This document shows, in pieces, positions 796-41,326 of a stretch of DNA of 43,960 nucleotides. The notes under the pieces were generated by a model. The model was not told the DNA's origin. It did no database searches and saw only the letters and a program-made list of their open reading frames with translations. The translations under genes and the position numbers were made by a program. The stretch lies in the IMG/VR virus record IMGVR_UViG_3300028794_000183, positions 1 to 43,960 of that record, one strand, 5' to 3'. How positions within the stretch are numbered: the stretch's first letter is position 1; each line of letters begins with the position of its first letter. The stretch comes from a virus.

Positions 796-800
796 GGCAA

Positions 801-2021: not shown

Positions 2022-2112
2022 CCCGCTCTCCTCGTTCGTTCTCGGGAAGTTTCACGGCGGCCGGGTCAAGGGTCAAGCGTGGGGCCCAAGCAAACGGTGA
2101 GGTCGTCCCCAG

Positions 2113-5041: not shown

Positions 5042-5058
5042 GCTGCACCTCCTGCGGG

Positions 5059-5481: not shown

Positions 5482-6023
5482 GGCTTGTCTCCGGTCTCGT
5501 CCATCGATGTGCGCCTGCTTGTGCTGCGCTGCAGTTCCGCCACCTCCTGGCGTAGCTCGATCAGGTTGCGCTGGCATTCCTGCTCCAGCGCGATGAGCTG
5601 CTTCATCTGCTCGTGAGCCAACCGCTGGTCCTCCTGTGCCCGCTCTTGGGCTACACGCAGGTCGGCGCGGTATTCGCCACTCTCGCGACGCAGGTCATTG
5701 AGCTGATCACGAAACTGCAGGTACAGATTGGCACCCTGCGCGTCCACACGCCTTTGCAGGCCGTGCATGGCGGACCCGGCTGCGATGAGAAAGCCGCCGA
5801 CCAGCAAGGCGATCAACAGCGCCTGCGACTCCAGCAGGTTCGGCGCCCATTGCGTGCGCGTTTCCCACATGCCGTAGAGGCCGACGATCCCGGCGCCAAA
5901 CAGCAGCCCGAGCAGCACGCGACCCAGCGTCAGGCGGCTGAGGAAGTCGGCCACTGCTGCCAGTTTGTCGGCCGGCGGCTGGGGCTGATCGGCCAGGCCA
6001 TCGGCAATGCGTCTGTTGGGCAT
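5478..6023 (-). CDS. Membrane-anchored coiled-coil lysis protein (Rz-like position)
   Basis: A 181-residue protein with two hydrophobic helices (about residues 35-52 and 65-85) followed by a long charged heptad-rich region (QRRVDAQGANLYLQF onward) that should form a coiled coil. It precedes the M15 peptidase with a 4 bp overlap. Position and architecture suggest a lysis accessory protein such as a spanin component, but I see no sequence motif proving this. The start ATG at 6023 opens MPNRRIADGL, 14 bp after the alpha/beta hydrolase stop. Confidence 0.6.
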   Translation of the reverse strand: MPNRRIADGLADQPQPPADKLAAVADFLSRLTLGRVLLGLLFGAGIVGLYGMWETRTQWAPNLLESQALLIALLVGGFLIAAGSAMHGLQRRVDAQGANLYLQFRDQLNDLRRESGEYRADLRVAQERAQEDQRLAHEQMKQLIALEQECQRNLIELRQEVAELQRSTSRRTSMDETGDKP

Positions 6024-8109: not shown

Positions 8110-11100
8110 CGTTTGAGCGCGGCGAAGCGCAGCAGAAAGCCGTTGGTGGTTTCGGTGGCGCTGGTGCCGGGGCCTGTGCCGTCGCCGAGGCTGATCCACC
8201 CGTAGTACGCCATCGTGACCGTGTGGCCGGCCGGCACGCTGAAGCTCTGCAGGCAGGTCTCCACGCCATCCGCAGCGAAGTCGGGGTCGGCAGGCGTGAC
8301 CAACGGCGCCTGGTTGGGCCCGTAGGCCGATACCCGCAGCAGCGTGGTCGAGGCCGTGACGTCATCAACCTGCACGTAGGCCGACAGGCGCACGTCCTGC
8401 GTCCAGTCGCTGGACAGCGCCAGGCTGCGATTGCCGTGGTACGACAGTTCCACCTCTACGTCGCCCGCGGTGTCGTTGACGTAGGTGAGCGCCGGCGCGT
8501 CCAGGAACGGGAACCGGAATTCGTCCAGATCGGTGTCGGTGACGACATCCGTGGCGGTGAGGTAGGTCGTCGCCTGATACTCGATGGACGTGTAGCCCTT
8601 GGCAGTGGCCGCCTCGTCGCCGATGTGCTCGGTGAGCACGGCGATGTCGATAGGCCCGTCGCTGACCCAGTACGCCGGCGTGGTGCCGATGACCTCGCCG
8701 CTTTCGGGATCCTCGATGTCGGCGTACCAGGTGGCCGGCGTGCCGTCGTCGGTGTACCAGTAGGCGGTGAATTCGGTGACGATGGTGCCAGCGATGGTGA
8801 ACTGGGCTATCGCCGCGTCCACGCTCCAGTTGCCCGATGTATCGACGTGCTTGGCCAGGATGGTGTAGGTGCCGTCCGGTGGCCAGGGCCACAGAAAATC
8901 ACGCACCTTGCCTTTGAAGATGGGCGCCGTATCGTCGGACCATGCGCCCTCTACGTGCAGCTCCGTGCTGCCGTAGTCCAGGTCGACCGGCGAATCCCAG
9001 GTGAATTGCACGCCGCCCGCGTAGAAACGCATGCGGTAGCCGAGCACGTTGCCGGGCGGCGCCAGCTTGCCGCCGATCTGGTACAGCACCGTTCCGCCCC
9101 ACGGCCCACGCACGTATGGCAGCGTCTGCACGGCGCGATGCCGGAACATGTAGTAGCGGCCAGCGAGCAGGCCGCCGATGAGCGCGGACGTGGCGGCACC
9201 CTGCTCGCGCCAGGCCGGCCAGTCGCCGGCAGGCGTGGCGGCCGCGGCCTCTGTGTACTGCACTTCGATCTCTCCGCCCTGGCGGATGTTGGCACCCACG
9301 GCGGCCGTCCAGCTGACGGCCGTCATGGTCTGCACCGTGCCATCAGCCAGCACGATGGCCACGCCGTCGGCCACGGCCAGGCCGGTGAGCTGCTCCACGT
9401 CCCACGGTCTGCGCAGGTTGCTGTCGGGCGCGGGATCGCGGCCGACCAGCTCGGGCAGCGGCTCGTAGATGGCGTCGGTGATCTCGGCCAGCTGCAGCTT
9501 GATGCCGCCGTTCGGGCTCCACCTGCGGCCGATCACCTCGGCCGTTTTGCCCAGCGCCTCATCCATGCCCTGGCGCGGCAGCAGCAGCGTGCCCACGTCG
9601 AACAGGCGCGCCTGGTAGGCGTAGAGGTTGCACATCGCCTCGATGCGCGTGCCGGCCTGCGCCTCGCGGATGGCGATGCTGGCCAGGTGCTGGGCCTGGG
9701 CGATGTGGTTGACGCCCTCGTACGTAACCTGCTCGGCGCGGACGCCGTGTGCGGCGATCAGCGTCTCGTCCGAGACGCCGGGGTATGGCAGCACCTGGTA
9801 GCGCTGCGCCGGGTCTACGCAGGAGCCGGTGATGCGGTTGATACGCTGGTCGCGGCTGAAAGCGTTGGCGCCGCGGAGCACGGGGTCATTGCCCGGCTTG
9901 CCATCCCTGCCGAGCTTTTGCGCAAGCCAGGCCGTCGTGAGCGTGAATGTCGACGCGGCTTTCACACCGGCGCGAAAGCGCCACAGGCCACCGTCCCAGC
10001 CGTCGCTGCCGGCCATGGCCGCCATGATGGCGTCCATGGCGGCGCGGCGCGTGTTGGGGTCTGCGTCGGCCGGGATGGTGATGCCGCAGGTGTAGCGCGG
10101 CAGCGTGACGGTCTCGGTGCTGTCATCGGCCTTGCGCAACGTGAATTCGGTGGAGACATCGCAGGCGTCTGCAGCGGCCATCACGTCCGCGCGCGGGATC
10201 TCTGCGGCCGGCAGCGCCCAGCCGCCGGACCAGCGGGCGTAGTGGTCGGCCTGCAGGGCGGCGTTTTCGCTCCATGTCCAGGTGTCTGGATAGTCGATGC
10301 GGTGCGAGCCGCTGCCGCCGGCGACGGTGGAGTCGAGCCGGGCGTCGTACAGTTTGGCGCCGCGGAACACGGCCGTCACCGTGGGCCGGCCTTGCGTGAA
10401 TACGTCGGTGTCGAAGAGCACATCGACAGCCGCCAGCGCGATGCCGGCAAAGCGGTCCGTGGCCGTCAACTTGCCCGGGTATTCAGCCGCCAGGTCGGCG
10501 CCGACGTTTTGGCTGATGGTGCCGAGGTAGGGCCGGATGCGCACCAGCGAGGTGGCCGCGGTGTATTGGTAGTTGACCCAGATGTCCGCGCCGGCCAGAC
10601 CGCCGGTGACGGTGGCCGTGGTGCCGACCACGCTGACCGAGGCGGCGCCCTGCTCCATGTATTCGCCATAGCCGGTGCTCCACACCGCCCAGGCGGCGCC
10701 GCCGATGGGCTCATGCGACAGGGCGACGGTGGCGGCACCGGCTTCGTCGAGCGTGCCGTGGTCGATGGCCGACTCTCCACGCGCTTTGACGTATGGGTGC
10801 TGGTACAGCTTGACCGCGATGGCGGACGCCGCCAGCGGCTTGAGCAGGCCGGGCGCGGCCAGCACCACCGTGCCCGGGGCGCCGATGCCGGCGGCCACCT
10901 GGTAGCGAGTGCTGTCGCCGTCGAACAGCACCGTGTCGCCGGTAGCGATGCTGCCGGCGCCAGTGATGAGCGGGATGGCCGTGGTGCCGACCGCGAAGCC
11001 TGCGGCCGTGGTGGTGTAGCCCGAGGCGGTGCCGACGCTGGTGGGCTGCACCCAACCGTCAACGTCGAGCGTGACCAGGTCGTCGTTGAGATACCACTGC

Positions 11101-27424: not shown

Positions 27425-27880
27425 CTATGGAGTAGAACGGGGGGGGGTCTCGCCTGATGATGCAGACCCCGGGCGCGCCAGCGCCTGCAGCGTCTCCACG
27501 CGCGCCCTGGCCGCCTTCCTGCTCGCCTGGAGGTCCATGATGTAGTCACCGATCACGCGGTGCGCTTGAGCCACCCGAGCCTTGAGCGTTGATAGCGCGC
27601 ATCCAGCCGCGTCCGCTCGGGCCTGCAGGCCACCCGGGTGGACGTACCACACATACACGGCAAGCCGATCCGTTGACACCAGCGTATTGATCGCCGCGTC
27701 CGTGTCCGTCGCCTCCACATCGCTGATCGGCACAACCGCCTCAACGTACCCGCGCCGGCTCTCGCCCGCACTCAGCAGGTCGACGGCGGCATACCCCAAG
27801 CACCCATCACCGCCATGTGCCAGGCGCCACCGGGCCCAGTTCTGAAGTCGCAATTCAACCCATTCGATTTTCGCCATCAC
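27425..27880 (-). CDS. Antiterminator Q-like / sigma-like HTH protein
   Basis: A 151-residue protein with IEWVELRLQNWARWRL near the start and a C-terminal helix-turn-helix-like region (ALSTLKARVAQAHRVIGDYI), the layout of small Q-like antiterminators found between replication and late genes in proteobacterial prophages. It is placed immediately before the packaging genes, where a late-gene activator belongs. The ATG overlaps the DnaB stop by 4 bp. The assignment rests on position and general resemblance. Confidence 0.55.
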   Translation of the reverse strand: MMAKIEWVELRLQNWARWRLAHGGDGCLGYAAVDLLSAGESRRGYVEAVVPISDVEATDTDAAINTLVSTDRLAVYVWYVHPGGLQARADAAGCALSTLKARVAQAHRVIGDYIMDLQASRKAARARVETLQALARPGSASSGETPPRSTP

Positions 27881-29202
27881 CTCACCTTTGCCTGGCGCCG
27901 GGGCGCCAATCCCACCCAGTCGCCGAAGCGCTGGTAGGCACCGTCAAAAAACAGATTGATCGTGGCCGTGGGCCCGTTCTTTTGTTTGCACAGGTGCATT
28001 TCCGCCCAATGCTGGTTTTCATCGGTTGGCTTGCGCATGTACTCACGGTAGAGAAGTCCGATCGTGTCGGCCGCGCCCTCGATGTCGCCGCTGTCGCGCA
28101 AGTCCCCCATCTGTGGCGGCCCATTGCGTTCGTCGGCCTCGCGCTTGAGCTGGCTCAGCAGGACCACCCACACGTCTAGCTCTTTCGCCAGGCGCTTCAG
28201 CCCGTTGGCAATGCGGCCCAGGCCGATGCTTCGGTTCTCGCCGCCGTCGTCCATCAGCTGCAGGTAGTCGACGATCAGCACATCCAAACGTCCGGACCGC
28301 CGGCGGACCTGCTGGGCCTTGCGGCGCACATCGGCCAGCACCAGCCCGGTTTGATCGTCCAGCGCCAGGTGCAGGGGCATCAACGCGTCCAGGCCGTTGC
28401 TCACACCCTCCCACAGGCTCGCACTCGCCTTCATCGGATTGCGGATGTCCGCCAGGTTCACGCCGCCGGCCGCCGCCACCAGCCGCGCCGCGGCGCTCAG
28501 CAGACTGTCCTCCTGCGACAGCAGCAGCACCTGATAGTCGACGCCCAGCGACCGGCATAGCTGCAGCACGAACGCCGTTTTCCCCATGCTCGGCCGCGCG
28601 CCGACCACCCACAGCTCACCACGCCGGCCACCACCCGCGGTGACATGATCCAGGTCGACCAAGCCCATGGGCAATGTCCGGACCTCACCCGCCGCGCGGG
28701 CCTGCAAGTCGTCGATGAATGCCACCAACACCCGGTCCAGTTCCACCGGCTCGCGCGCGGCCGTGCCTGACTGCGCCAGGGACAGCAGCGCCGTCGTCGC
28801 ATCGCCCAGCACTTGGCTGAGCGGCGCGGACTGGTCGGTGCCACGCGCAGCGTCGTCCAGCAGCTGGCGCGCTATGCGCATGGCCTGGCGCCGCATGGAG
28901 CGCTCACGCACGATGTCGGCATAGGCCCGGGCCGCGCTCGCGCTCGGCACGCTCTGCGCCAGCGCGTTGAGATACGCCAGGTCGCCGCGCATGCGGTCGT
29001 ACACCGTCACCACGTCGGCCAGCTTGTTGGCCGTCAGCAGGCCGACGATGGTGCTGTAGATCGTCGAGTGCTCGGCCAGGTAGAAGTCCGTCGGCCGGAG
29101 CCGCGTGCCCACCTCATCGAATGCGGCGTTGTCCATCAGCAGCGCGCCCAGCACGCTCTGCTCCGCCTCCACGCTGTGCGGTGGCGTGACCGGCTCAGCC
29201 AT
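27877..29202 (-). CDS. dnaB: Replicative DNA helicase, DnaB family
   Basis: A 441-residue hexameric helicase. The N-terminal domain has PPHSVEAEQSVLGALLMDN, the DnaB signature; the RecA-like domain has Walker A GARPSMGKT at 201-209, Walker B LDVLIVDYLQLM, and the later QLKREADERNGPPQMGDLRD motif. It would drive phage DNA replication. The ATG at 29202 overlaps the upstream stop by 8 bp (ATGGCTGA), so the frame's earlier start is unlikely. No primase or initiator of a known type is adjacent. Confidence 0.92.
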   Translation of the reverse strand: MAEPVTPPHSVEAEQSVLGALLMDNAAFDEVGTRLRPTDFYLAEHSTIYSTIVGLLTANKLADVVTVYDRMRGDLAYLNALAQSVPSASAARAYADIVRERSMRRQAMRIARQLLDDAARGTDQSAPLSQVLGDATTALLSLAQSGTAAREPVELDRVLVAFIDDLQARAAGEVRTLPMGLVDLDHVTAGGGRRGELWVVGARPSMGKTAFVLQLCRSLGVDYQVLLLSQEDSLLSAAARLVAAAGGVNLADIRNPMKASASLWEGVSNGLDALMPLHLALDDQTGLVLADVRRKAQQVRRRSGRLDVLIVDYLQLMDDGGENRSIGLGRIANGLKRLAKELDVWVVLLSQLKREADERNGPPQMGDLRDSGDIEGAADTIGLLYREYMRKPTDENQHWAEMHLCKQKNGPTATINLFFDGAYQRFGDWVGLAPRRQAKVR

Positions 29203-29674
29203 GCCGCCGCGTCCGCCCCGCACGTTCGTCCGCCAGGGCCAGCACCCGCGCCCGGAAGGCCAATGAGCGCGCCACGTCTTCGGGCGTCGCTTCTGCAGCC
29301 ACCGTCAGCAGCACAGCCGGATCCACCAGCTCCGATGCCGCCTCATCCCGCAGTTGCGCACCACGCTCGGCGAAACGCTCGATGTTGGCCTCATCGCGCA
29401 GGATCCATTCCGGCGTCGTGAAAATGCCGCCCTGTTCCAGCACCCATGCATCGGCCGCAGCGCCCTCGAACGCCTGCATCAGCACGTCCTCGTCGAACAC
29501 GGTCAGCCACATCTCCAGTAGCTGCCGGCGCTTCGGCCCGAGGCCGCAGCGAGCCACCACCTTGTCGAACACGAGCACCGCGTGCTGATGCAGCCGCATG
29601 ACCGGCGAAATCGCCGCCGCGGTTTGCGGCGTGGGCCCCTTTATGAGCTTCAGCTGTCTGTACGTACCAACCAT
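29195..29674 (-). CDS. Unknown protein upstream of DnaB
   Basis: A 159-residue, mostly helical protein of unknown family. It starts with an ATG preceded by a strong AGGAGG ribosome site and is translationally coupled to dnaB. Position suggests a helicase loader or replication accessory protein, but I see no ATPase motif or HTH. It is rich in Ala, Glu and Leu. Confidence 0.65.
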   Translation of the reverse strand: MVGTYRQLKLIKGPTPQTAAAISPVMRLHQHAVLVFDKVVARCGLGPKRRQLLEMWLTVFDEDVLMQAFEGAAADAWVLEQGGIFTTPEWILRDEANIERFAERGAQLRDEAASELVDPAVLLTVAAEATPEDVARSLAFRARVLALADERAGRTRRHG

Positions 29675-30322: not shown

Positions 30323-30651
30323 GGACCCCAGCTCCTGCGCCCGAGCGGACGCGCCATTTCGCGTTGCATGGCACGCCATACCTGCTCCAGGCCGCATCGC
30401 ATCCATGGCTGACCATTGCGCGACACGCACCACCGGCGCACGTCACGGGGATCGGCCTCGAAGTGCAGATCCCATACCACGCCGTACGCCTCCCACTGCC
30501 AAACGAATGGCTTGCGCAAATCGACGCGCGGGCCGATTTCTCTCGCCATGCGATTGGCCGATCGGGCCGCCTGGGCGGCGGCTTGCTGCCGCCGCTCCGA
30601 CGCTGCGTCACGGCGTGCGCGGCGGGCTATGAATGCTGCGGAACTATGCAT
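30319..30651 (-). CDS. Small basic phage protein, first gene after the cassette array
   Basis: A 110-residue protein with an Ala/Arg-rich helical N-terminus (RRARRDAASERRQQAAAQAA) and a Trp-rich second half (FVWQWEAYGVVWDLHFEADP). No family recognised. Its ATG lies inside the degenerate attC-like site that ends the cassette array, as for several cassette genes. Confidence 0.6.
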   Translation of the reverse strand: MHSSAAFIARRARRDAASERRQQAAAQAARSANRMAREIGPRVDLRKPFVWQWEAYGVVWDLHFEADPRDVRRWCVSRNGQPWMRCGLEQVWRAMQREMARPLGRRSWGP

Positions 30652-30686
30652 GATTCGTTAACGAGAGGTCGATAACACTGTTAGGT
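30638..30686 (+). repeat. Degenerate attC or attI-like left boundary of the array
   Basis: The R' end GTTAGGT at 30680-30686 and inner boxes ATTCGTTAACGA / TCGATAACACT are attC-like, but the R'' box (GCGGAAC) fits poorly. It marks the start of the first cassette. Confidence 0.55.
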
Positions 30687-30687
30687 T

Positions 30688-30855
30688 TCATCGGCTACGC
30701 CTCTTGCGGGCCAAAGCTGCAACAAGCCACGCCTTGCCACCGCGCGCCTCGTATTCCGCCCGCTGCGCCTTCGTCACGCGCTCGCGGATCATTTCCGTCT
30801 GCGCCGCATCTGGCGGCAGGGCCGGGCGGCCCCGCTTCTTTGCTGGCTCTGTCAC
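30688..30855 (-). CDS. Cassette Z gene 2: small DNA-binding-like (RHH-type) protein
   Basis: A 55-residue basic protein read from a GTG at 30855 that overlaps the upstream stop (GTGA). It starts with KKRGRPALPPDA and continues with ERVTKAQRAEYEARGGKAWL, a pattern like small ribbon-helix-helix antitoxin or repressor proteins. It ends next to the GTTAGGT cassette boundary. A similar opening (MGRPPLPDGEG) occurs in cassette H. Confidence 0.55.
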   Translation of the reverse strand: MTEPAKKRGRPALPPDAAQTEMIRERVTKAQRAEYEARGGKAWLVAALARKRRSR

Positions 30856-31052
30856 AGCGCCGATACAGCAGCATCGCGCGCCACATACAGGCACTTCATG
30901 TCTTCGAGCGTTACCTTGGCGTTCCGCAGCGCGTAGTTGCTTTCCGGCAAGTCGCTCTTGGCAGCCTGGTTGTAGAGGCTACCCAGCGCCGTCAGCAGCC
31001 GGTCGCGCTCTGCAACCAGCTTCGCGTACTCGGCGTTTGTGATCTGGACCAT
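30852..31052 (-). CDS. Cassette Z gene 1: small helical protein
   Basis: A 66-residue protein starting MVQITNAEYAKLVAERDRLL with a GAAGGAG ribosome site seven bases upstream. The sequence is a probable coiled coil. No known family. It is the first of two genes in cassette Z, which thus carries an overlapping gene pair, and it is preceded by the TGTGGCACA repeats and an AT-rich stretch that could hold a cassette-borne promoter. Confidence 0.6.
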   Translation of the reverse strand: MVQITNAEYAKLVAERDRLLTALGSLYNQAAKSDLPESNYALRNAKVTLEDMKCLYVARDAAVSAL

Positions 31053-31093
31053 TCTTCTGCTCCTTCTGCCGCACCGTGCCGCAGTGCATATAG

Positions 31094-31138
31094 TGTGGCA
31101 CAACAAACAGTTGAGGCGCAAGCTATATTTGTGGCACA
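31094..31138. promoter_or_regulatory. Two TGTGGCACA palindromic repeats upstream of cassette Z genes
   Basis: TGTGGCACA occurs at 31094-31102 and 31130-31138, 36 bp apart on the same strand, each a near-perfect 9 bp palindrome flanked by an AT-rich step. They lie between the start of the 66-residue gene and attC A. Possible operator pair, for example for the small DNA-binding protein encoded in the same cassette. Confidence 0.4.
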
Positions 31139-31141
31139 TGA

Positions 31142-31199
31142 ACCTAACTGATCGTTCAAGGCGACGGCCTACGGCCGCGCCTTAACTCTAACGTTGGGC
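31142..31199 (+). repeat. attC site A
   Basis: 58 bp: R'' ACCTAAC, L'' TGATCGTTCAAGGCGA, short palindromic spacer, L' CGCCTTAACTCTAAC, R' GTTGGGC. The extra base in L'' relative to L' gives the plus orientation. Its R'' matches the start of cassette Z (GTTAGGTT). Confidence 0.9.
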
Positions 31200-31402
31200 G
31201 GCTTGCTGTTCGCCAAGTGCTGTCGGTACGCCACCTCACATGGCGGGCACTGAACGAAACGCTTGTTGAACTCGGCGAACGGCGTTGCCAAGAGCCAACC
31301 TCTACCGTTGCAATCAGCACATGCCGACCATCGGTAGATCGGGTCGTCGGTGCCTGCGCGAATCGTCCGCGCTTCCTTCAGTTCTGGGATCTCGAAATAC
31401 AC
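31169..31402 (-). CDS. Cassette A: small zinc-ribbon-like protein
   Basis: A 77-residue protein read from a GTG with AAGGA eight bases upstream. It has two Cys pairs (CADCNGRGWLL and CPPCEVAY) that should bind one zinc ion. No enzyme motif. The last ten residues (PPNVRVKARP) are encoded by attC site A itself, so the cassette boundary has become part of the protein. Confidence 0.65.
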   Translation of the reverse strand: MYFEIPELKEARTIRAGTDDPIYRWSACADCNGRGWLLATPFAEFNKRFVQCPPCEVAYRQHLANSKPPNVRVKARP

Positions 31403-31436
31403 GGCGTTCGTCCTTCCGTAGCTTCGTCCACCAGCC

Positions 31437-31523
31437 GCCCAACAGGCCCATCGAGCAGAGCGCCAACGGCTGGCGCGCTTCGTTCAGTCTTTGCCCGGCG
31501 CCTGCTCATGGGCAGCGTTAGGC
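31437..31523 (+). repeat. attC site B
   Basis: 87 bp: R'' GCCCAAC, R' GTTAGGC, with paired arms AGGCCCATCGAGCAGAGCGC and GGCGCCTGCTCATGGGCAGC. R'' and flank match the start of cassette A over 10 bp (GTTGGGCGGC). Confidence 0.85.
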
Positions 31524-31898
31524 CTCTTGGTGGTACGCGAACTCAAGGCGCGTCACCACCGTGTCGGGTGTGCAGCCCTTGTGGGTTGCACAAAACATAG
31601 CCACAAAGGCGCTGGGCCAGCGGTAGTCCGGGTGCGCGCCGAAGCCCTCCAGCTCGCACTCGCGGAAACCGTAGTCCAGGTCATCCAGCATGGCGCGCAG
31701 CGGCTCGCGGCGCACGCTCACGATGGTCAGCGGGTCACGCAGCACGTCCAGCTTTTCGCCCGGCCGCAGGCCCATGCACTTGCGCACCGGACGCAATTGC
31801 TGGCCCGGCTTGGCGTGCAGCCAACCGAGGCGCCGTGTCACGGTCTTGGTGCCCTCCATGATCGGCGTCGTCGTTAGGGCAAAGCTCATGTTTCGCAT
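31518..31898 (-). CDS. Cassette B: ASCH-like domain protein
   Basis: A 126-residue protein with the ASCH/PUA-like pattern: SFALTTTPIMEGTKTVTRRLGW at the start (lysine/arginine-rich TKTVTRR core), a GEKLDVLRDPLTIVSV beta segment and FVAMFCATHKGC near the end. ASCH domains bind RNA or modified nucleotides; the same kind of protein is common in phages. The stop codon TAA lies inside the GTTAGGC end of attC B. Confidence 0.75.
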   Translation of the reverse strand: MRNMSFALTTTPIMEGTKTVTRRLGWLHAKPGQQLRPVRKCMGLRPGEKLDVLRDPLTIVSVRREPLRAMLDDLDYGFRECELEGFGAHPDYRWPSAFVAMFCATHKGCTPDTVVTRLEFAYHQEA

Positions 31899-31923
31899 AG
31901 GTTCTCTCGCTTCGGATGCAGAG

Positions 31924-31987
31924 GCATAACTACTCGCTCAAGCGGGACTGGCCCTGGCGGGCCAGCCCCTTAGCTCGCACGTTAGGG
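31924..31987 (+). repeat. attC site C
   Basis: 64 bp: R'' GCATAAC, R' GTTAGGG, arms TACTCGCTCAAGCGGGACTGG and CCAGCCCCTTAGCTCGCAC. Its R'' matches the start of cassette B at 10 of 11 positions. Confidence 0.85.
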
Positions 31988-31997
31988 CGCAATACCA

Positions 31998-32435
31998 TCA
32001 GGTACGGTCGCCCGCACCTGCTGGGTCACGTTGGTTCCACTCTCCGCGCAGTTTGTACGCGCGGTTCCTGCATTCCCGGCACATATCAGGTGCCGCCGTG
32101 CCAAGCCAGCGGAACACCTTTGTTCGGTGCTCGTAGTTGCCGCAGTCGCATCGCACAACCCATCTGGCGCTTTGGTTCTGGCTTCCTTGGTCTGCGGCAT
32201 AGCCAACAATCACCATGCGGTCGCGGCGCTTGCCAGGCAACTCCCGCAGTTCTGGCCGGCTGTTTGCTGCCACCCACGGAATCGGCGCTGTAGCCAGCAC
32301 CGCGTCCACGGGCGTCAGGTGCGGCGCCTCCTTCGGCATCGGGCGCCACAAGTGCTCAGGTTTCGCGGCGCGCACCACGCGGGCGGCCACACGGTCAATT
32401 GGCAGCGGGTTCTGCAGCAGTTTCTCTCGGTCCAT
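31998..32435 (-). CDS. Cassette C: unknown protein with Cys-rich zinc ribbon
   Basis: A 145-residue protein with a GAGGA ribosome site seven bases before its ATG. The C-terminal half has CDCGNYEHRTKVF ... MCRECRNRAY, four cysteines arranged as a zinc ribbon; the N-terminal half (IDRVAARVVRAAKPEHLW) is basic. Such proteins occur in phage early regions, function unknown; nucleic-acid binding is likely. Confidence 0.65.
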   Translation of the reverse strand: MDREKLLQNPLPIDRVAARVVRAAKPEHLWRPMPKEAPHLTPVDAVLATAPIPWVAANSRPELRELPGKRRDRMVIVGYAADQGSQNQSARWVVRCDCGNYEHRTKVFRWLGTAAPDMCRECRNRAYKLRGEWNQRDPAGAGDRT

Positions 32436-32454
32436 GCGGAGTCCTCGCGTTGCG

Positions 32455-32556
32455 CCCTAACCACTCGCTCAAGGCGAGGTCAAACGGCGGGTTGCACTGT
32501 CTTGTTCCTCGGGCTTCAGCGGCGCCGTTTGCCCCGCCTTAGCTCGAACGTTAGAA
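32455..32556 (+). repeat. attC site D
   Basis: 102 bp: R'' CCCTAAC (preceded by G), R' GTTAGAA, arms CACTCGCTCAAGGCGAGG and CCCGCCTTAGCTCGAAC, long spacer with CAAACGGCG / CGCCGTTTG pairing. Matches the start of cassette C over 12 bp (GTTAGGGCGCAA). Confidence 0.88.
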
Positions 32557-32942
32557 GGCATTGCGCGCTCGAAGTGAAACACCACTTGCGCACCTGTTTC
32601 TGCTACCAACCCGAAGCGCATCGCATGCCTATACGTTGGCTGGTTTCGCGCCAACACGCCGGGTGCGTTTGCCAACTTTTGCCGCCACGCCTCAAGAGGC
32701 CACGAGTGCTTGTCGATGTTGCAAGGCGGGCAAGCCGGCATCAGGTTCTCGATGCGGTCGTTCTCTGGCCTATCGAAACCACCTGTCGCCACAACGCCTT
32801 TGCCATGCACGTAGGCCAGGCTGCGCACAACTGCCTCGACGTGATCGGCATGCCAGCGCGCGCCGAGTTCGTTGCCACAGTAAGCGCATCGGCCGCCAAA
32901 CTTCATACGCAGCGTCTCGCGTTGTTGCTTCGTCAACTTCAT
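32469..32942 (-). CDS. Cassette D: HNH endonuclease
   Basis: A 157-residue HNH nuclease that starts MKLTKQQRETLRMKFGGRCA. Zinc pairs CAYC and CPPC flank the core ARWHADHVEAVV and RIENLMPACPPCNIDKHSW. It is a free-standing nuclease unrelated to the terminase-associated HNH at 26888-27307. The final 20 or so residues, after FHFERAMPSNVR, run into attC D. HNH genes inside cassettes could be homing or anti-competitor enzymes; this is inference. Confidence 0.8.
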   Translation of the reverse strand: MKLTKQQRETLRMKFGGRCAYCGNELGARWHADHVEAVVRSLAYVHGKGVVATGGFDRPENDRIENLMPACPPCNIDKHSWPLEAWRQKLANAPGVLARNQPTYRHAMRFGLVAETGAQVVFHFERAMPSNVRAKAGQTAPLKPEEQDSATRRLTSP

Positions 32943-32968
32943 CTGTTCGTGCCTTCGTTCGTCGTGCC

Positions 32969-33028
32969 TTCTAACCCGGGCTTCGAGCGGACTTGCCTTC
33001 GGCAAGCCGCTCAAGTCCCACGTTAGGC
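32969..33028 (+). repeat. attC site E
   Basis: 60 bp: R'' TTCTAAC, R' GTTAGGC, arms CGGGCTTCGAGCGGACTTGCC and GGCAAGCCGCTCAAGTCCCAC. Matches the start of cassette D over 11 bp (GTTAGAAGGCA). Confidence 0.9.
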
Positions 33029-33436
33029 GTCAAGTGCTTCCATCAGAATCTTCTGTCCGAGCGTCACCGTGAAAGGCAGCGCCTCAGTCATTGCAGCGCG
33101 CAGCCGTTCAATCTCGGCGGCCCCTGCGCGAAGCCGGACTACCGTCCGCCCCTCATCGTTGTCTGTGAGAGGGCTCTTTATGTTGCTCAGCGCTAGCGCA
33201 AACTGGTAGCGTCTATCGGCGTCTTCGCGCATCGCATCCACAAGTTGCGGTCCGGGGCCTTCCATGCCCACGTCAAGCGTGCCGTTGCCAATGTTGATTC
33301 CGGTCAGAAGCGGGTCGGTGATCGTTGCCACCAGCCGCGCGTTTTCTTCACGCAGTTGTCGCACCGCGCGCCACGGGTTCAGCAGCGAAAGCGCCGCCAG
33401 CTTCGCGCGCAGTAGCCAGTAGTTCAGTCTTTGCAT
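33023..33436 (-). CDS. Cassette E: unknown helical protein
   Basis: A 137-residue protein that opens MQRLNYWLLRAKLAALSLL, possibly a short membrane-proximal helix, followed by a coiled-coil-like stretch (AVRQLREENARLVATI) and a mixed C-terminal part with RVVRLRAGAAEIERLRAAMT-like heptads. No family recognised. Its TAA stop is inside the R' end of attC E. Confidence 0.65.
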   Translation of the reverse strand: MQRLNYWLLRAKLAALSLLNPWRAVRQLREENARLVATITDPLLTGINIGNGTLDVGMEGPGPQLVDAMREDADRRYQFALALSNIKSPLTDNDEGRTVVRLRAGAAEIERLRAAMTEALPFTVTLGQKILMEALDA

Positions 33437-33466
33437 GTCTGCTTTCTCTCGTTTCTCAACCCCGAC

Positions 33467-33518
33467 GCCTAACCCTTCCTTCAACCGGACCTTCGGCCGG
33501 TTAAGTCAAACGTTGGGC
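33467..33518 (+). repeat. attC site F
   Basis: 52 bp, the shortest and cleanest site: R'' GCCTAAC, L'' CCTTCCTTCAACCGGA, L' CCGGTTAAGTCAAAC, R' GTTGGGC. Matches the start of cassette E over 10 bp (GTTAGGCGTC). Confidence 0.93.
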
Positions 33519-34165
33519 CGCACTTTGCAGCGTCGTGCCAGCTCCACCAGCCATAAAGCCAGCTCGGGCGGCGTGTGTTCGCGTTCGGCCTTGCTGATCT
33601 CGGGCCTGTCGGTGTTGCGGCTGCCGTCGCGGCGCCGGCCGCTGGTGCCGCACACGGCCGGCGCATCGCCCAGCGTCAGCGGCATGTCGGGTATGTCTCG
33701 CGGCTCACACCCGACGATGTACAAGCGCGTGGCCTTGTTCGCGCGGTGTCCCCATGCGTGCTGAGTTATCGGCAGCGTCCACCCGCCGAACCCGTCGCGC
33801 TGGCTTGGCTCAGGTAGTCTCTGCGCCGGCCACAGCGTGCTGGCCCGCTGGGTGCTCAAGCACGCCGCCGAACTCGCGCACCATCGCCACGGCAGGCGCG
33901 CAAGGTTGCGTTCGTCGGCGCGCGGGCTTGCCATGTGCCGCAGCCTGCCCCAGGCCCTGCAAGGCGGGTGCGCCACCACCGGCCACGGGCCATCGTAGGT
34001 GCGGGCGTCGCGCTCCATGTCGTACACCTCCACGCCTGGGAGCGTCTTGTAGTGACTGTCGGCGCGCGCAAACAACACGGCCACATCCGCGCGGTGCGGC
34101 CCAACACGCAATTCAAGCGGAGGCCCAACGGCATCAGCTTTGGCGGCTTCTTCGTACATGGTCAC
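33506..34165 (-). CDS. Cassette F: phage-type protein of unknown function, internally frame-shifted
   Basis: A 219-codon frame. Conserved-looking parts are DVAVLFARADSHYKTLPGV, WPVVAHPPCRAWGRLRHM, FGGWTLPITQHAWGHRANKA and the C-terminal SKAEREHTPPELALWLVELA, a pattern I associate with uncharacterised phage early proteins. Between 33841 and 33895 the frame reads as low-quality Arg/Ala sequence, while the next frame reads AVAMVREFGGVLEHPAG, which fits the context. Two compensating one-base indels are the simplest reading. The first 21 residues lie inside attC G, and the GTG start overlaps the upstream stop (GTGA). The last residues RPNV come from attC F. Confidence 0.55.
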   Translation of the reverse strand: MTMYEEAAKADAVGPPLELRVGPHRADVAVLFARADSHYKTLPGVEVYDMERDARTYDGPWPVVAHPPCRAWGRLRHMASPRADERNLARLPWRWCASSAACLSTQRASTLWPAQRLPEPSQRDGFGGWTLPITQHAWGHRANKATRLYIVGCEPRDIPDMPLTLGDAPAVCGTSGRRRDGSRNTDRPEISKAEREHTPPELALWLVELARRCKVRPNV

Positions 34166-34198
34166 GCCGTTGGTTCCCGCTTAATTGCAACGTTCGGC
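34099..34198 (+). repeat. attC site G
   Basis: 100 bp: R'' GCCCAAC, R' GTTCGGC, arms ACGCAATTCAAGCGG and CCGCTTAATTGCAAC. Matches the start of cassette F over 12 bp (GTTGGGCCGCAC). The spacer contains the start of one gene and the stop of the other. Confidence 0.92.
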
Positions 34199-34656
34199 CC
34201 CAGCAATACCGCACGCGCGGCATCCCAGGCCTTCGGTTTGCGCCGTTGGTACTCTTCGGCCAGGGCTTGCGCTGCTTCGGCATCGGCCATGCCGTAGGTG
34301 GCCAAGTCCGCAGACTCAATACGGTCCTTCAAGTCCTTCAGCGCTACCAACTCGGCCAACGCCTCACGGACTCGGATTGAGTTGCGCACCCAGGCCATCG
34401 CGTGCGGCACGCACTGGTCGCCGTGGTGTTCGCACTCCGGGACGGTGCGCAGCAAGGCATCGCGCGTCGCCAGCAGTTTGTCCGTCACGTCCAGTTCTTC
34501 GCGCAACTGCTGCGCGCAACTGTGGCCGCCGTGCTGCCCGGTGCGCCAGCGGAAGCCGCACGTACAGCACTCGCTCGTCCCGGCCGGTGGCTGGGGCCGA
34601 ACTTGGCAGTCGAGGCGAGCCCCAACGGCCTGGGTGCTTTCGTGGGTGTCGGTCAT
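34162..34656 (-). CDS. Cassette G: unknown Cys-containing protein
   Basis: A 164-residue protein. The N-terminal part has a Cys cluster (ECCTCGFRWRTG) that may bind zinc with C/H residues later (ECEHHGDQC); the rest is helical with AEAAQALAEEYQRRKPKAW near the end. The start ATG opening MTDTHESTQAVGAR lies within attC H, and the C-terminus GPNVAIKREPTA is encoded in attC G. No known family. Confidence 0.6.
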   Translation of the reverse strand: MTDTHESTQAVGARLDCQVRPQPPAGTSECCTCGFRWRTGQHGGHSCAQQLREELDVTDKLLATRDALLRTVPECEHHGDQCVPHAMAWVRNSIRVREALAELVALKDLKDRIESADLATYGMADAEAAQALAEEYQRRKPKAWDAARAVLLGPNVAIKREPTA

Positions 34657-34698
34657 TTCGTCTCGGGCCGTTGGGCCCGCCTCACTTCTACGTTCGGC
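34596..34698 (+). repeat. attC site H
   Basis: 103 bp: R'' GCCGAAC, R' GTTCGGC, arms TTGGCAGTCGAGGCGAGCCC and GGGCCCGCCTCACTTCTAC, plus CAACGGCC / GGCCGTTG pairing in the spacer. Matches the start of cassette G over 13 bp, the longest in the array. Confidence 0.92.
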
Positions 34699-34699
34699 T

Positions 34700-35026
34700 T
34701 CACTGCTGATCCACCAGCGCATCCAGCCACACACTGAGGCTGACCCCGGCCGCCGTGGCCAGTTCCTGCGCGCGGGCCTTGCGGGCGTCAGTGGTGCGCC
34801 ACTCGACGCGGGCGGTTTTGCCCTCGCCATCGGGCAGAGGCGGCCGGCCCATCAGCGGCGCCGGCTCGCGCCCCGCCAGGCCATCACGGTAGCCCCGGCC
34901 CAGCTCGATGCGCGGGTCGCCGTTGAGGCCCGCTTTCGCCAGCGCGGCCAGCTCCTGCGGGTTGCCGAACGTGCGCGGCACTCCTGCGCCTGCTTTGTGT
35001 TGCAGATGCGCCAGGGGCACACCCAC
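34700..35026 (-). CDS. Cassette H, downstream frame: RHH-like C-terminal domain
   Basis: A 108-codon frame whose second half (MGRPPLPDGEGKTARVEWRT, then AQELATAAGVSLSVWLDALV) looks like a ribbon-helix-helix DNA-binding protein. The convincing part begins near NPQELAALAKAGLNGDPRIE. The start is uncertain: the true product may be a shorter protein from the ATG opening MGRPPLPDG, or the 3' part of one gene that begins at 35238 and has suffered a frameshift near 34960-34970. Confidence 0.5.
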   Translation of the reverse strand: MGVPLAHLQHKAGAGVPRTFGNPQELAALAKAGLNGDPRIELGRGYRDGLAGREPAPLMGRPPLPDGEGKTARVEWRTTDARKARAQELATAAGVSLSVWLDALVDQQ

Positions 35027-35238
35027 AGTCCGAGAGCCGTGTCCATCGCCTCCCGCTCTTCGGCTGTCTGCTGGTGAATGCGCGCATGCGCCGGGTTGTT
35101 GCCAAGGTCACAACCTGGCTCCCACTCGCCAGGGCATGCGCTCAAAGCGCGGTCATTGCACTTGCATCGCGCTTCGGACACAGCGCCTAACTGGTCGTTC
35201 GAGCCGAGTGCCCCCGGCGTGCGTTCTGTGGTCATCAT
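34852..35238 (-). CDS. Cassette H, upstream frame: Cys-containing N-terminal part, probably frame-shifted
   Basis: The frame starts at an ATGATG that overlaps the methyltransferase stop, with GGAGGA directly upstream, all inside attC I, so initiation here is well supported. The first 90 residues (CKCNDRALSACPGEWEPGCD, GLWVCPWRICNTKQAQECR) look genuine and Cys-rich. After about residue 92 the frame degrades into Arg/Ser/Trp-rich sequence while the neighbouring frame becomes protein-like. One indel would join the two into a single protein of about 180 residues. Confidence 0.5.
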   Translation of the reverse strand: MMTTERTPGALGSNDQLGAVSEARCKCNDRALSACPGEWEPGCDLGNNPAHARIHQQTAEEREAMDTALGLWVCPWRICNTKQAQECRARSATRRSWPRWRKRASTATRASSWAGATVMAWRGASRRR

Positions 35239-35280
35239 TCCTCCGTGGCCGGGGTCACCGGCTCAACTCCAACGTTGGGC
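35185..35280 (+). repeat. attC site I
   Basis: 96 bp: R'' GCCTAAC, L'' TGGTCGTTCGAGCCGAG, L' CCGGCTCAACTCCAAC, R' GTTGGGC. Its R'' does not match the start of cassette H (GTTCGGC) beyond the core, the only such case in the array. Confidence 0.9.
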
Positions 35281-35783
35281 TTCATGAACACCATCCAGTG
35301 CGTGCCAGCTTTCTTGCCGCTGGTGTTCCCGAACAGTGGCTGATGAGGCGTCAGTGCCAGGACTTCGGAAAGCTTCACCTGCGTCTCGTTCCACTTGAAG
35401 ACCAGCACGCCGTCGGCATGCAGCACGCGAAAGCACTCGGCGAAGCCCTGGCGCAAGTCGTCACGCCAGTCCTGGCCCAGCTTGCCGTACTTCGCGGCCA
35501 GCCAGGAACGCGGGCCGGCGCGCACCAGGTGCGGCGGGTCGAACGCCACCAGCCGAAACGAGTCCTCCGGGAATGGCAGCGCGCGGAAGTCCATCAGCAT
35601 GTCAGGGTGCACATTGAGCGTGCGCGTGCCCGAGGCGTTGCCGTGGCTGCGGTCGGTCACCGTGAGCGTCTCGCTGCGCTGGTCGCCGAACACCACGTCA
35701 GGGTGGCCACGGTCGAACCACATCATGCGGCTGCCGCTCGCTGGGTCAAGCACACGGGCGTCCGAGCGCTGAAGCCCAACCAT
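35235..35783 (-). CDS. Cassette I: SAM-dependent DNA methyltransferase-like protein
   Basis: A 182-residue protein with VLDPASGSRMMWFD at 11-24, resembling the SAM-binding loop, and FDPPHL at 81-86, a DPPY-type catalytic motif typical of amino-methylating DNA methyltransferases. The rest (GFAECFRVLHADGVLVFKWN) fits the Rossmann strands 5-7. It is shorter than restriction-system enzymes and has no nuclease partner, so it is a solitary phage-type methyltransferase, probably for anti-restriction or regulation. The ATG overlaps the R'' end of attC J, and the tail KPNVGVEPVTPATEE is encoded by attC I. Confidence 0.78.
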   Translation of the reverse strand: MVGLQRSDARVLDPASGSRMMWFDRGHPDVVFGDQRSETLTVTDRSHGNASGTRTLNVHPDMLMDFRALPFPEDSFRLVAFDPPHLVRAGPRSWLAAKYGKLGQDWRDDLRQGFAECFRVLHADGVLVFKWNETQVKLSEVLALTPHQPLFGNTSGKKAGTHWMVFMKPNVGVEPVTPATEE

Positions 35784-35837
35784 TCCATCGAGGCGAGATC
35801 CAACGGCCTCGCCCTGCTGCTCATGCATTGGCATTGC
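35774..35837 (+). repeat. Degenerate terminal attC site J
   Basis: R'' GCCCAAC and L'' CATTCCATCGAGGCGAG are intact and match the start of cassette I over 11 bp (GTTGGGCTTCA). The far half (GCCTCGCCCTGCTGCTCATG) pairs partly, but the R' GTTRRRY is replaced by CATTGGC, so the array ends here. Confidence 0.65.
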
Positions 35838-36074
35838 TCACAGCGGCCTCAGCACCCGGTAATTGCGCTCCGACAGAAAGAACCGCTCATTGCAATGCTG
35901 CGGCTCACCCGGCAATGGCACGTACGCGAACACGCTGTACTGATGCCCACCGCCCTGCTCGGCCGAAGCGCCGAGCCATTGGCAGACGCGGAACGTTGGC
36001 GTCATGTACCGCGCCTCACGCTGCAGCGGCGTTTGCGCCGCCAGCATCACGGCGTGCTGTTGCGCCTGGCTCAT
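35838..36074 (-). CDS. Small phage protein upstream of the array
   Basis: A 78-residue protein (MSQAQQHAVMLAAQTPLQRE start, then VPLPGEPQHCNERFFLSERN) not in any cassette. The ATG overlaps the stop of the regulator upstream by 4 bp. No family recognised. It is the last phage-backbone gene before the early transcript enters the cassettes. Confidence 0.6.
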   Translation of the reverse strand: MSQAQQHAVMLAAQTPLQREARYMTPTFRVCQWLGASAEQGGGHQYSVFAYVPLPGEPQHCNERFFLSERNYRVLRPL

Positions 36075-36433
36075 GCGGCGCTCCGCGCGACCTGGATTTC
36101 CTCCAACAGCGTGACGGCGCCTTGCTGCGCCAGGTACTGGATCAGCACCGTATTGCCCAGTACCGCGCAGGCCGCGCCGACATGCCGGGCGGGCAGCTCG
36201 CGCCTGTCGGCATGGATGCTGAAGTAGTCCGACACGTGGCTGGCGTAGCAGCCCGTCAGCTCGGCGAAAGTGCGCTGCGTGATGCGCGGGTTGCGCAGCT
36301 TCCAGGCCAGGCGGCAGGCGCGGCGCCAGCTCTTGAGGCCCATCACGGCCGCGGCCGGCAGCACCAGGCGCCGCGCGCGCACCTCCACCAGGCCCAGCGG
36401 CAGCGGCAGGGTATGGCGATCAATAAATTTCAT
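36071..36433 (-). CDS. Phage transcriptional regulator with HTH (Cro/CII-like position)
   Basis: A 120-residue basic protein. The segment ITQRTFAELTGCYASHVSDY (residues about 66-85) is a helix-turn-helix. It is the first gene of the leftward early operon, where lambdoid phages carry Cro or CII. The C-terminal helix (AVTLLEEIQVARSAA) may serve in oligomerisation. The ATG opening MKFIDRHTLPLPLG is chosen over the longer frame, which runs through the divergent promoter region. Confidence 0.65.
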   Translation of the reverse strand: MKFIDRHTLPLPLGLVEVRARRLVLPAAAVMGLKSWRRACRLAWKLRNPRITQRTFAELTGCYASHVSDYFSIHADRRELPARHVGAACAVLGNTVLIQYLAQQGAVTLLEEIQVARSAA

Positions 36434-36576
36434 CGGAACACCGCTTGAGTTACCGGTTGAACCCGGGCAAAGCTGAAGGCATGAAAACACCCCTGAAAAG
36501 AGCGCCCCGGGTCCGAAGAACCGAGGCGCCAAGGCCACCCTTCGGCAGCCGCGGAGACACCCGTGGGCGGGCCGTG

Positions 36577-39318: not shown

Positions 39319-39596
39319 CGCCGCCGCGTTGCTACGTTGCCGAGGCCGGTGACCTGGTCATCCCGGTACCGGCCTTCCTGACCCGCACCGCCGCCGTGCC
39401 GAGCACGCTGCAGCGCCTGGTGCTGAACGACATGGAACGCCGCCGCGGCGGCCTGGCCGCCGGCCCGGCCGAGGCACCCCCGCACCTGCGCGCCGCCTAC
39501 ACCGCGGCGCTGGACCTGGCCATCCAGCTGCGCCGCGCCATTGCCGAGGCACAAGCCGCGGCCCACCCCGCCACCCCACCGGAGACACCCCTTTGA
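39315..39596 (+). CDS. Small unknown phage protein
   Basis: A 93-residue protein ending in a long helix (AAYTAALDLAIQLRRAIAEA). It overlaps the ParB-like gene by 4 bp (TTGA), so the two are translationally coupled. No family recognised. Confidence 0.58.
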   Translation: MTPPRCYVAEAGDLVIPVPAFLTRTAAVPSTLQRLVLNDMERRRGGLAAGPAEAPPHLRAAYTAALDLAIQLRRAIAEAQAAAHPATPPETPL

Positions 39597-41326
39597 GCAC
39601 CGACACTCTCGCGCCCGACGCGAACGAAACCATCGTCCAGCTGGTGCTGACCGACCTGCTGGACAGCCCGTCGCAGCCGCGCGATTCACTGCCCAACATT
39701 GCGGAGCTGGCGGCCAACATCCGCGCCGAACGGCGCATCCACCAGCCGCTGATCGTACGGCCGCTGCCTGACGGGACCAAGCAAATCGTGTTCGGCCACC
39801 GGCGCAAGTACGCCGGCATGGAGGCCGGCTTGGTGACGGGGCCCTGCGTGGTGCGCGACATGACAGACGCCGAGGTGCGCAGCGCGCAGATGACGGAAAA
39901 CATCCAGCGCGAGGCGATGAAGGCGCTGGAAGAAGCGCGGGGTTTCCGCGCGCAGATCGACAACGACGGCCTGTCCCCCGACGAACTGGCCGCCGCCATC
40001 GGCAAGAGCCGCAGCTGGGTGTATGAGCGGCTCAGCCTGCTGGACCTGGTGCCACTGGTGCGCCAGCAGCTGGAGGCGGGCAAGATCGACGCATCCGTGG
40101 CCGCACTGATCGCCCGGCACCGCACGCCGAAGTTCCAGGAAAAGGCGCTGGGCTACATCAAGGGCAAGGCCTGGGACCTGGAAGACGGCGGCAAGCGCAG
40201 CTATCGCCAGATACGCGAGCTGCTGAACGAGCGCTTCATGCTCACCCTGAGCGCGGCGATTTTCGACCCCGAAGACGAGATGCTGCTGCCGGCCGCCGGC
40301 CACTGCCTGCGCTGCCCCAAACTGAGCGCCAACGCGCCCAACTTCGCCGACGCGGCCGACCCGCGCGAAGAACGCGACAGCCCGGCCGCACGGCAAGAAG
40401 ACAGAACGCTCGAAGACGGGGACCAGCACACCTACTGGCAGCGGCAGCACAGCCGCCTGAAGCACGGCGGCGAGCGCGTGTGCACAGACCCCGACTGCTT
40501 TGCGGAGAAAAAGAAGGCCCACCTGCAGCGCGAAGCGGCCAAGCTGCGCGCCGACGGCACCACGGTGGTGGACGGCGGCAAGGCCCGCGCGGCGGTGGAC
40601 GCGCAGGGCCAGGTGAAAGGCGCCTACATCGCCGTGGCCGACGTGAAGGCCGAGCTGAAAGCCACGCTGGACAAGAAGGCCGCCAAGCCGGCCGTGGTGA
40701 TCATTCAAGACCCGCGCGGCGGCAAGCTCATCAAGGTCTACAGCCGCGCAGACCTGCAGACCGCCGGCGTCAAGGTCAAGGATGCGGCAGCCAGCCATCA
40801 GGCCAAGCAGGCGGCCGAACGCGCCAAGCGCGAGCAAGAGCGCGAAGCGCACATGACGCAGGCCCGGGCCGAATGCGCGCGCCGCGTGGACCTGCTCACG
40901 CGCGTGCGCGCCGCGGCGGCTGGCCGCCAGCGCAGCACCTTTGAGCTGCGCATGGCCGCCAGCCAGGCGCTGCACGCCGTGAGCTGGTGGAGCAGCGCAG
41001 TGCTGTGCGAACTGCACGGCGTGGCCGCCAAAGACCAGCTGGCCAAGCGGCTGGACACCATGCGCCCGGACCAGCTGGCGCTGCTTCTGCTTGACTGCCT
41101 GATCGTCGACAACTGCAACGAGCACGAGCTACAGAACAAACCCGGGCCGCTGCTGGCGCTGGCCGGGCACTACGGCATCAAGCCCGCGCCGAAGCCTGAG
41201 CCCGCGGCGCCGGCGAAGAAGGCCAAGCGCAAGCCGCTGCAGACCACGGACGCCGACGCGCCGGACGACGCAGGGCTGGCCGAGGCCGACGAAGCGCAAG
41301 CGGCTGAAGCGGAGCCGCAGGCATGA
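39593..41326 (+). CDS. ParB/RepB/Spo0J-family nuclease-like protein
   Basis: A 577-residue protein. The ParB N-terminal domain is clear: IHQPLIVRPLPDG, GHRRKYAG at 68-75 and the TENIQRE box at 101-107, followed by a helix-turn-helix (LSPDELAAAIGKSRSWVYER, 127-146). A long basic, coiled-coil extension with a Cys-containing segment (CLRCPKLSANA, CTDPDCFAEKK) follows. There is no ParA partner, so a role in partition is doubtful; phage ParB-like proteins often act in DNA binding or transcription. The start is a TTG that overlaps the upstream stop (TTGA); no in-frame ATG gives the family start. Confidence 0.85.
   Translation: MSTDTLAPDANETIVQLVLTDLLDSPSQPRDSLPNIAELAANIRAERRIHQPLIVRPLPDGTKQIVFGHRRKYAGMEAGLVTGPCVVRDMTDAEVRSAQMTENIQREAMKALEEARGFRAQIDNDGLSPDELAAAIGKSRSWVYERLSLLDLVPLVRQQLEAGKIDASVAALIARHRTPKFQEKALGYIKGKAWDLEDGGKRSYRQIRELLNERFMLTLSAAIFDPEDEMLLPAAGHCLRCPKLSANAPNFADAADPREERDSPAARQEDRTLEDGDQHTYWQRQHSRLKHGGERVCTDPDCFAEKKKAHLQREAAKLRADGTTVVDGGKARAAVDAQGQVKGAYIAVADVKAELKATLDKKAAKPAVVIIQDPRGGKLIKVYSRADLQTAGVKVKDAAASHQAKQAAERAKREQEREAHMTQARAECARRVDLLTRVRAAAAGRQRSTFELRMAASQALHAVSWWSSAVLCELHGVAAKDQLAKRLDTMRPDQLALLLLDCLIVDNCNEHELQNKPGPLLALAGHYGIKPAPKPEPAAPAKKAKRKPLQTTDADAPDDAGLAEADEAQAAEAEPQA

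Follow-up and report, generated by a model that had tools for sequence, protein, structure and literature searches.

Integrons are known as bacterial gene banks, and their attC recombination sites are asymmetric, with an extrahelical base held in the L'' box. Such sites also occur in phages: the available text of Qi et al. (2023; PMC9892861) describes integrons and clusters of attC sites lacking an integrase (CALINs; 17 of these) in phage genomes, including captured host integrons, and reports that IntI1 recombines the tested phage attC at G|TT. Here we describe an attC array in the early region of a temperate phage genome, IMG/VR virus record IMGVR_UViG_3300028794_000183, which was analyzed at its full length of 43,960 bases (hereafter, the window) and contains terminase and portal genes. 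This is very probably a phage-specific kind of integron cassette array that lacks an integrase and in which the genes are reversed relative to their attC. Reversed cassettes form a class, a large variant of the integron specific to phages, to which the window belongs.

The array resembles the phage elements of Qi et al. (2023) in that attC arrays are found with or without intI and include methyltransferase cassettes, and differs from phage TJE1 of the same study, in which our model finds a single attC, with the gene and the attC on the same strand, that is, in the classical polarity. A class of reversed genes, a class of phage attI sites and translation starts carried by attC are not described in the available text of that paper. 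The sedentary chromosomal integrons of Burkholderiales (e.g., Rubrivivax) share with the phage arrays the type of attC and the divergent orientation of intI with respect to the array; in these integrons, however, the genes run with attC, and reversed starts are rare (see below). For Treponema denticola, a "reverse integron" has been described (Coleman 2004, cited from the available text of PMC4909258), in which the integrase gene is oriented like the cassette array, so that, as in the phages, intI and the cassette genes are co-directional. Nevertheless, going by that description, Treponema is set apart: there it is intI that is turned, whereas here the geometry of intI and attC is the usual one and it is the genes within the cassettes that are turned.

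The evidence for the class comes from a scan of IMG/VR for attC motifs, which yielded many viral contigs with arrays, about 100 of which, other than the window, were used for comparison. A strand test based on the longest open reading frame (ORF) was uninformative in the GC-rich DNA, and therefore polarity was assessed by codon log-odds, computed only on the DNA between attC sites with a model trained on the long ORFs of the viral loci irrespective of array direction, and by a separate GC-frame test. In the window, the top strand of attC is the + strand and the cassette genes are all on the - strand; by the codon test, six cassettes are antisense, none is sense and one is unclear, that is, the usual direction of the gene with its attC, which is common although not strictly defining for classical cassettes, is not observed. 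The viral cassettes altogether include 235 antisense, 7 sense and 55 unclear ones; the antisense excess persists after removal of duplicates (208 vs 7) and when counted by contig (89 vs 1), and the GC-frame criterion agrees with the codon log-odds. Six of the seven sense cassettes belong to a single contig, L165 (IMGVR_UViG_2834908352_000001), which encodes a full IntI in the classical arrangement and in effect serves as an internal control. The same test applied to bacterial integron loci with the same attC motif gave 135 sense vs 7 antisense cassettes; thus, the codon model is not biased toward one answer.

These counts bear directly on the possibility that the array consists of ordinary bacterial integron cassettes, a part of a host chromosomal integron captured by a prophage by chance. 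The attC motif is indeed the same as in the integrons of Rubrivivax and other Burkholderiales, and such captures in Vibrio phages are reported in the available text of Qi et al. (2023), but the polarity in phages and bacteria is opposite, and relatives in the fetched bacterial loci are found for only 8 of the 232 phage cassette proteins; all are in two contigs from metagenome-assembled genomes (MAGs), and the array of one of these two contigs is reversed as well. We consider this explanation highly improbable. The only contig of the bacterial set with an antisense majority, L233 (5310 bp, from a MAG assigned to Aquincola), carries cassettes related to those of phages; it probably represents phage DNA binned with its host, hinting at a host among Burkholderiales.

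The sites themselves were identified with a covariance model built from 16 attC, all from bacterial genomes, which matched exactly nine positions of the window, between 31142 and 35280 (E-values from 8.7e-15 to 1.2e-4; the next-best match has E = 0.37). All are on the + strand:

31142-31199, + strand: attC 1, 58 bp (65.5 bits, E 8.7e-15), about 93% identical over 56 bp to an attC of phage contig L014 (blastn)
31437-31523, + strand: attC 2, 87 bp (45.0 bits, E 1.9e-9)
31924-31987, + strand: attC 3, 64 bp (29.2 bits, E 2.5e-5)
32455-32556, + strand: attC 4, 102 bp (26.6 bits, E 1.2e-4), with an inner stem score of 10 by the strict detector described below
32969-33028, + strand: attC 5, 60 bp (55.0 bits, E 4.6e-12)
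33467-33518, + strand: attC 6, 52 bp (57.7 bits, E 9.3e-13)
34099-34198, + strand: attC 7, 100 bp (35.0 bits, E 7.7e-7), with an ATG for the reversed gene of its own cassette in the variable loop
34596-34698, + strand: attC 8, 103 bp (33.4 bits, E 2.0e-6), with an ATG for the reversed gene of its own cassette in the variable loop
35185-35280, + strand: attC 9, 96 bp (51.6 bits, E 3.6e-11); on the bottom strand, GGAGGAATGATGACC comprises a ribosome site and a start, after which an N-terminal leader continues in the frame of ORF 34852-35238

The nine sites, packed in 4.2 kb with a single polarity (at least two suffice for an integron or a CALIN), all possess the boxes, the extrahelical base and the hairpin of attC. 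When the model was run with its filters off, a setting that coped worse with long loops, four sites stayed at E < 1e-5. A second, strict home-made detector, which scores the boxes, the inner stem and the extrahelical base, found 8 sites in the window vs a mean of 0.1 in shuffled windows. An earlier, sequence-only reading of this region had listed eleven sites of the form RYYYAAC...GTTRRRY; the model supports nine of them, and the outermost two (about 30640 and 35775) are not supported, there being no covariance-model match at 30638-30686 or 35775-35837. At the left position only a GTTAGGT half site is present, and at the right one R'' (at 35775) and L'' are seen and R' is absent. The listed form is exact at both ends in only four sites of the array, the others having a degenerate box. 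A candidate attI remnant at 30660-30686 appeared plausible by eye; it ranked 16th among GTTRRRY sites when compared with ten phage attI sequences and was dropped. Base pairing in the class is under constraint: in an alignment of 15 attC of 58 bases, one of them bacterial (L287), 93.7% of the expected pairs form, and the stems contain 44 compensated cells, compared with 14.8 after shuffling and 4-10 when the partner is slid.

Each cassette begins with the TT of an R' box and extends up to and including the G of the following one. Because the outer two sites are unsupported, the array comprises eight complete cassettes and two terminal segments instead of the ten gene-bearing segments originally counted:

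30688-31193, - strand: left terminal segment with short ORFs 30688-30894 and 30852-31052; no recognizable attC or attI marks its left limit
31194-31517, - strand: complete cassette, gene 31169-31402 (77 aa), the end of which (..PNVRVKARP) is encoded by the neighboring attC 1
31518-31981, - strand: complete cassette, gene 31518-31898 (126 aa), with no family match
31982-32550, - strand: complete cassette, gene 31998-32435 (145 aa), phrog_18493 (unknown function; E 5.9e-18)
32551-33022, - strand: complete cassette, HNH endonuclease gene 32469-32942 (phrog_2118, E 3.7e-48; PF01844), the end of which runs into attC 4
33023-33512, - strand: complete cassette, gene 33023-33484 (153 aa), with a TAA stop in the R' box of attC 5
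33513-34192, - strand: complete cassette, gene 33506-34165, phrog_12600 (E 1.3e-63)
34193-34692, - strand: complete cassette, gene 34162-34656 (164 aa)
34693-35274, - strand: complete cassette, overlapping ORFs 34700-35026 and 34852-35238
35275-35834, - strand: right terminal segment, DNA methyltransferase gene 35235-35834 (phrog_954, E 1.4e-68); the attC on its right is degenerate

Two of these genes have informative relatives in other phages. Homologues of gene 33506-34165 are reversed cassettes in contigs L061, L154, L168, L161 and others (tblastn, with attC beside the matches), and a 74% homologue of the methyltransferase is a cassette in L072. The phage homologues of the methyltransferase and of gene 33506-34165 start at about residue 22-28 and end at about residue 185 and 211-217, respectively, so that the homology omits most of the ends encoded by attC; for the methyltransferase, the best phage records match over about residues 25-185, short of the attC-encoded end. 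These matches confirm that the - strand is coding. The family phrog_12600 is found in tailed phages, a 10.9 kb Xanthomonas phage and microviruses, and accordingly has spread across very different phages.

Cassette exchange is apparent within the class. The sequence-only reading had named two conditions that would refute it, a lack of covariance-model matches at its sites and gene differences between related phages that ignore the GTTRRRY points; matches are present, as described above, and in other phages of the class the differences do respect these points. In pairwise comparisons of phage arrays, homology (at least 93%) ends inside attC in 82 of 117 cases vs 28.5 expected, although, given that attC sites are alike, some of this excess could reflect matches that extend through similar attC. 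Individual cases are more telling: contigs L010, L015 and L070 are near-identical over their common stretches and have three different attC in front of one downstream sequence, with the switch at GTTAGGC, and contigs L050 and L078 have two cassettes in common (99.7-100%) in the opposite order. Cassettes thus are exchanged at the GTT point, with whole-cassette differences between near-identical phages and with reshuffling of cassette order.

These observations, together with the structure of the sites, can be set against the view that the repeats are conserved intergenic linkers, composed of ribosome sites and hairpins, and that modules are swapped between them by homologous recombination without the involvement of an integron integrase. 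Phages are mosaics, many of the sites contain translation signals, and intI is absent from most phages with arrays. An extrahelical base and a G|TT switch point are, however, not required of linkers; in both sequence and structure the sites agree with a model of bacterial attC, and their stems covary; the attC in front of the one switch point above differ except in their last bases; and some relatives encode IntI next to attI, with exact switches at AAG|TT. The probability of the linker explanation is very low.

Integron integrases above the curated cut-off are encoded in 3 of 50 viral records with attC motifs (G018, G036 and L165). The phage nature of G018 is evident from its portal, head, tape-measure and tail-fiber genes; beside intI it encodes a separate phage integrase, and it has tail genes in common with the window (67-70% DNA identity). 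A search with both phage IntI proteins retrieved 290 viral stretches, the best 80 of which were analyzed for geometry and polarity. In these, nearly all detected attC are upstream of intI, in the usual geometry, with exceptions in L353, L375 and L379; in L379, two attC of + polarity are located downstream of intI (10001-10954), which recalls the Treponema arrangement. The cassette genes of the intI-bearing stretches again are reversed (40 antisense, 0 sense). A conserved motif, GTTA..CGAC...GTGTCG..AATT...GTTRGGC, is present upstream of intI in 26 of 64 loci with enough sequence and is taken as the phage attI; it was not found in the window, where the left-end half site scores poorly. Three pairs of loci with 100% identical intI ends (L316/L317, L327/L328 and L358/L362) diverge at the AAG|TT of this motif, as does one further pair with 93% identical intI ends, and L358 and L362 are identical once more from a GTT onward, which looks like recent capture of cassettes at attI.

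In a phylogenetic tree with 51 bacterial IntI, the phage IntI do not form one clade; they are split among several groups of purely viral membership, of which the largest contains 28 proteins (support 0.91), a pattern that is only suggestive given the limited bacterial sample. Among isolate phages, IntI was found in P1 and in Vibrio and Shewanella phages, as already known, and also in two Acinetobacter records, a Salmonella record and Virus Rctr41k; none of these reaches 60% identity to the phage IntI queries. In the published record of the last of these phages (L450), the xerD gene at 4680-5678 is the IntI relative (41%). A BLAST search of isolate phages with typical attC gave chance-level matches only.

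The reversed polarity has a counterpart in translation signals. A ribosome site followed by ATG is present on the bottom strand of 96 of 195 long phage attC, whereas the same combination is seen on the top strand in 4 of the 195 and in 14 of 222 long bacterial attC. In many cases such a start begins a leader peptide that continues in frame into the gene (e.g., MTTEATPGALGSNDQLG), and at the other end of the gene the stop codon often falls in the R' box of the neighbor, or else the protein enters the neighboring attC and ends with PNV and a tail. In the window, ribosome site and start are clear at attC 9, and attC 7 and 8 have the ATG without a good ribosome site. A GAGGGG ribosome site in the spacer between R'' and L'' was considered as a phage feature and rejected, as bacterial attC have the same spacer. 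The sequence-only reading overlooked the antisense genes, these signals, and the intI and attI of some relatives.

The surroundings of the array fit an early operon. The same reading had placed it between the dnaB operon and a Cro/CII-like regulator; the helicase is supported by its family match, and the CII-like assignment has no such match:

27877-29223, - strand: gene for a DnaB-like replicative helicase (phrog_19, E 1.8e-82), downstream of the array in the same early operon
36071-36538, - strand: early gene upstream of the array, labeled CII-like by the earlier reader, with no family match

In 46 tests across the class, genes outside the distal end of the array had the direction of the cassette genes 45 times and the opposite one never, so that the array can be read within an early operon. 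The proposed mechanism starts from this arrangement. With the gene antisense to its own attC, attC lies upstream of the gene, the end of which falls in or near the neighboring R' box; with genes ordered in this manner, a phage early operon could transcribe the entire array. The ribosome-binding site, the start codon and an N-terminal leader may also be provided by the variable loop in many of the long attC of the class. An integron integrase acting on folded bottom strands of attC at G|TT would insert, remove and reorder the cassettes, and transcription, by exposing the bottom strand as the non-template strand, might help attC to fold. In some relatives, this integrase is encoded by the phage itself, next to the conserved attI; for the window phage, its source would have to be the host or another phage residing in the same cell, unless the array is now frozen. 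Given that attI adjoins intI and transcription would proceed from the opposite end, the point of entry of new cassettes is predicted to be promoter-distal, unlike in classical integrons.

As for the gene content, the 232 antisense cassette proteins form 159 families, 111 of them singletons. A scan of 120 of these proteins identified several DNA methyltransferases, two Lar-like restriction alleviation proteins, one Mom-like modification protein, one deoxynucleotide phosphatase, one PAPS reductase, one HNH nuclease and a weak match to the Acb2/Tad1 hairpin; the majority of cassette genes have no known function. The suggestion that such arrays store takeover or anti-defense genes is thus supported in part, by the occurrence of the methyltransferases, the Lar-like and Mom-like proteins and the one weak Acb2/Tad1 match; a counter-defense role is likely for some of them, and the array would let phages trade small early genes, some of these directed against host defenses.

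Several observations weigh against parts of this interpretation. The window encodes no integron integrase detectable with TIGR02249 (best score 28.9 bits vs a cut-off of 265), in line with the CALIN in a phage early region that the sequence-only reading had proposed, and no IntI above the cut-off was found in 47 of 49 viral attC-motif records (L165 aside), which may be fragments. The ends of the array are degenerate. The demonstrated cases of exchange all come from other members of the class; for the lineage of the window itself, a DnaB search found no close relative (the nearest is at 64%). Recombination at the window sites and use of the attC starts are predicted from sequence features, and for two of the three window starts set inside attC by a script, no ribosome site was found by its scoring. 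Finally, with most cassette genes having no known function, the counter-defense role rests on few members.

The first of these points raise the prospect that a once active phage integron array has become a frozen relic in the window phage after loss of intI, which is a sub-case of the integrase-less array and not fully exclusive of it. IntI is absent from the record, the outer sites are degenerate, and G018, the phage with related tail genes, has intI; by contrast, the nine inner sites are all well structured, the genes are open frames, and cassettes of the same families are mobile in other phages. On balance, the relic is conceivable but rather unlikely.

The remainder of the record seems to be of mixed origin. 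The left end (1-3432) contains a gene for a periplasmic substrate-binding transport protein (801-2021), which probably is host DNA, and a second phage-type integrase (2113-3432), so that the record seems to take in DNA of the host or of another island besides the phage. At 39593-41326, a ParB-like protein is encoded in a rightward early operon, which terminates with the right-end integrase of the record. There were no family matches in an Rfam scan, no tRNA in a tRNA scan and no relative in a DnaB search of bacterial genomes.

Integrons in phages are already known, and novelty is claimed for the reversed class only against the open-access literature, in which no other papers on integrons in phages or on a reversed class were found, subscription papers and preprints being outside the search. 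Beyond the individual array, it appears reasonably likely that temperate phages own a self-contained integron, with IntI lineages and an attI that belong to phages and a pool of turned genes separate from that of bacteria, in which the array would be read from its far end by an early promoter and receive cassettes promoter-distally, attC would double as ribosome site, start and protein tag, arrays without intI would be served in trans, and the whole would function as a market for early and counter-defense genes. The integron has a phage branch, with the same recombination sites and the opposite gene polarity, in about ninety viral contigs, in which genes including those for methyltransferases and restriction-alleviation proteins move cassette-wise; this provides a site-specific mechanism for part of phage mosaicism. 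Candidate counter-defense genes could be mined by reading the DNA between phage attC sites, and the class offers a natural test of the links among cassette polarity, expression and recombination, with the predictions that IntI would act in trans on phage arrays, that proteins would start inside attC, and that new cassettes would arrive at the far end of the operon.

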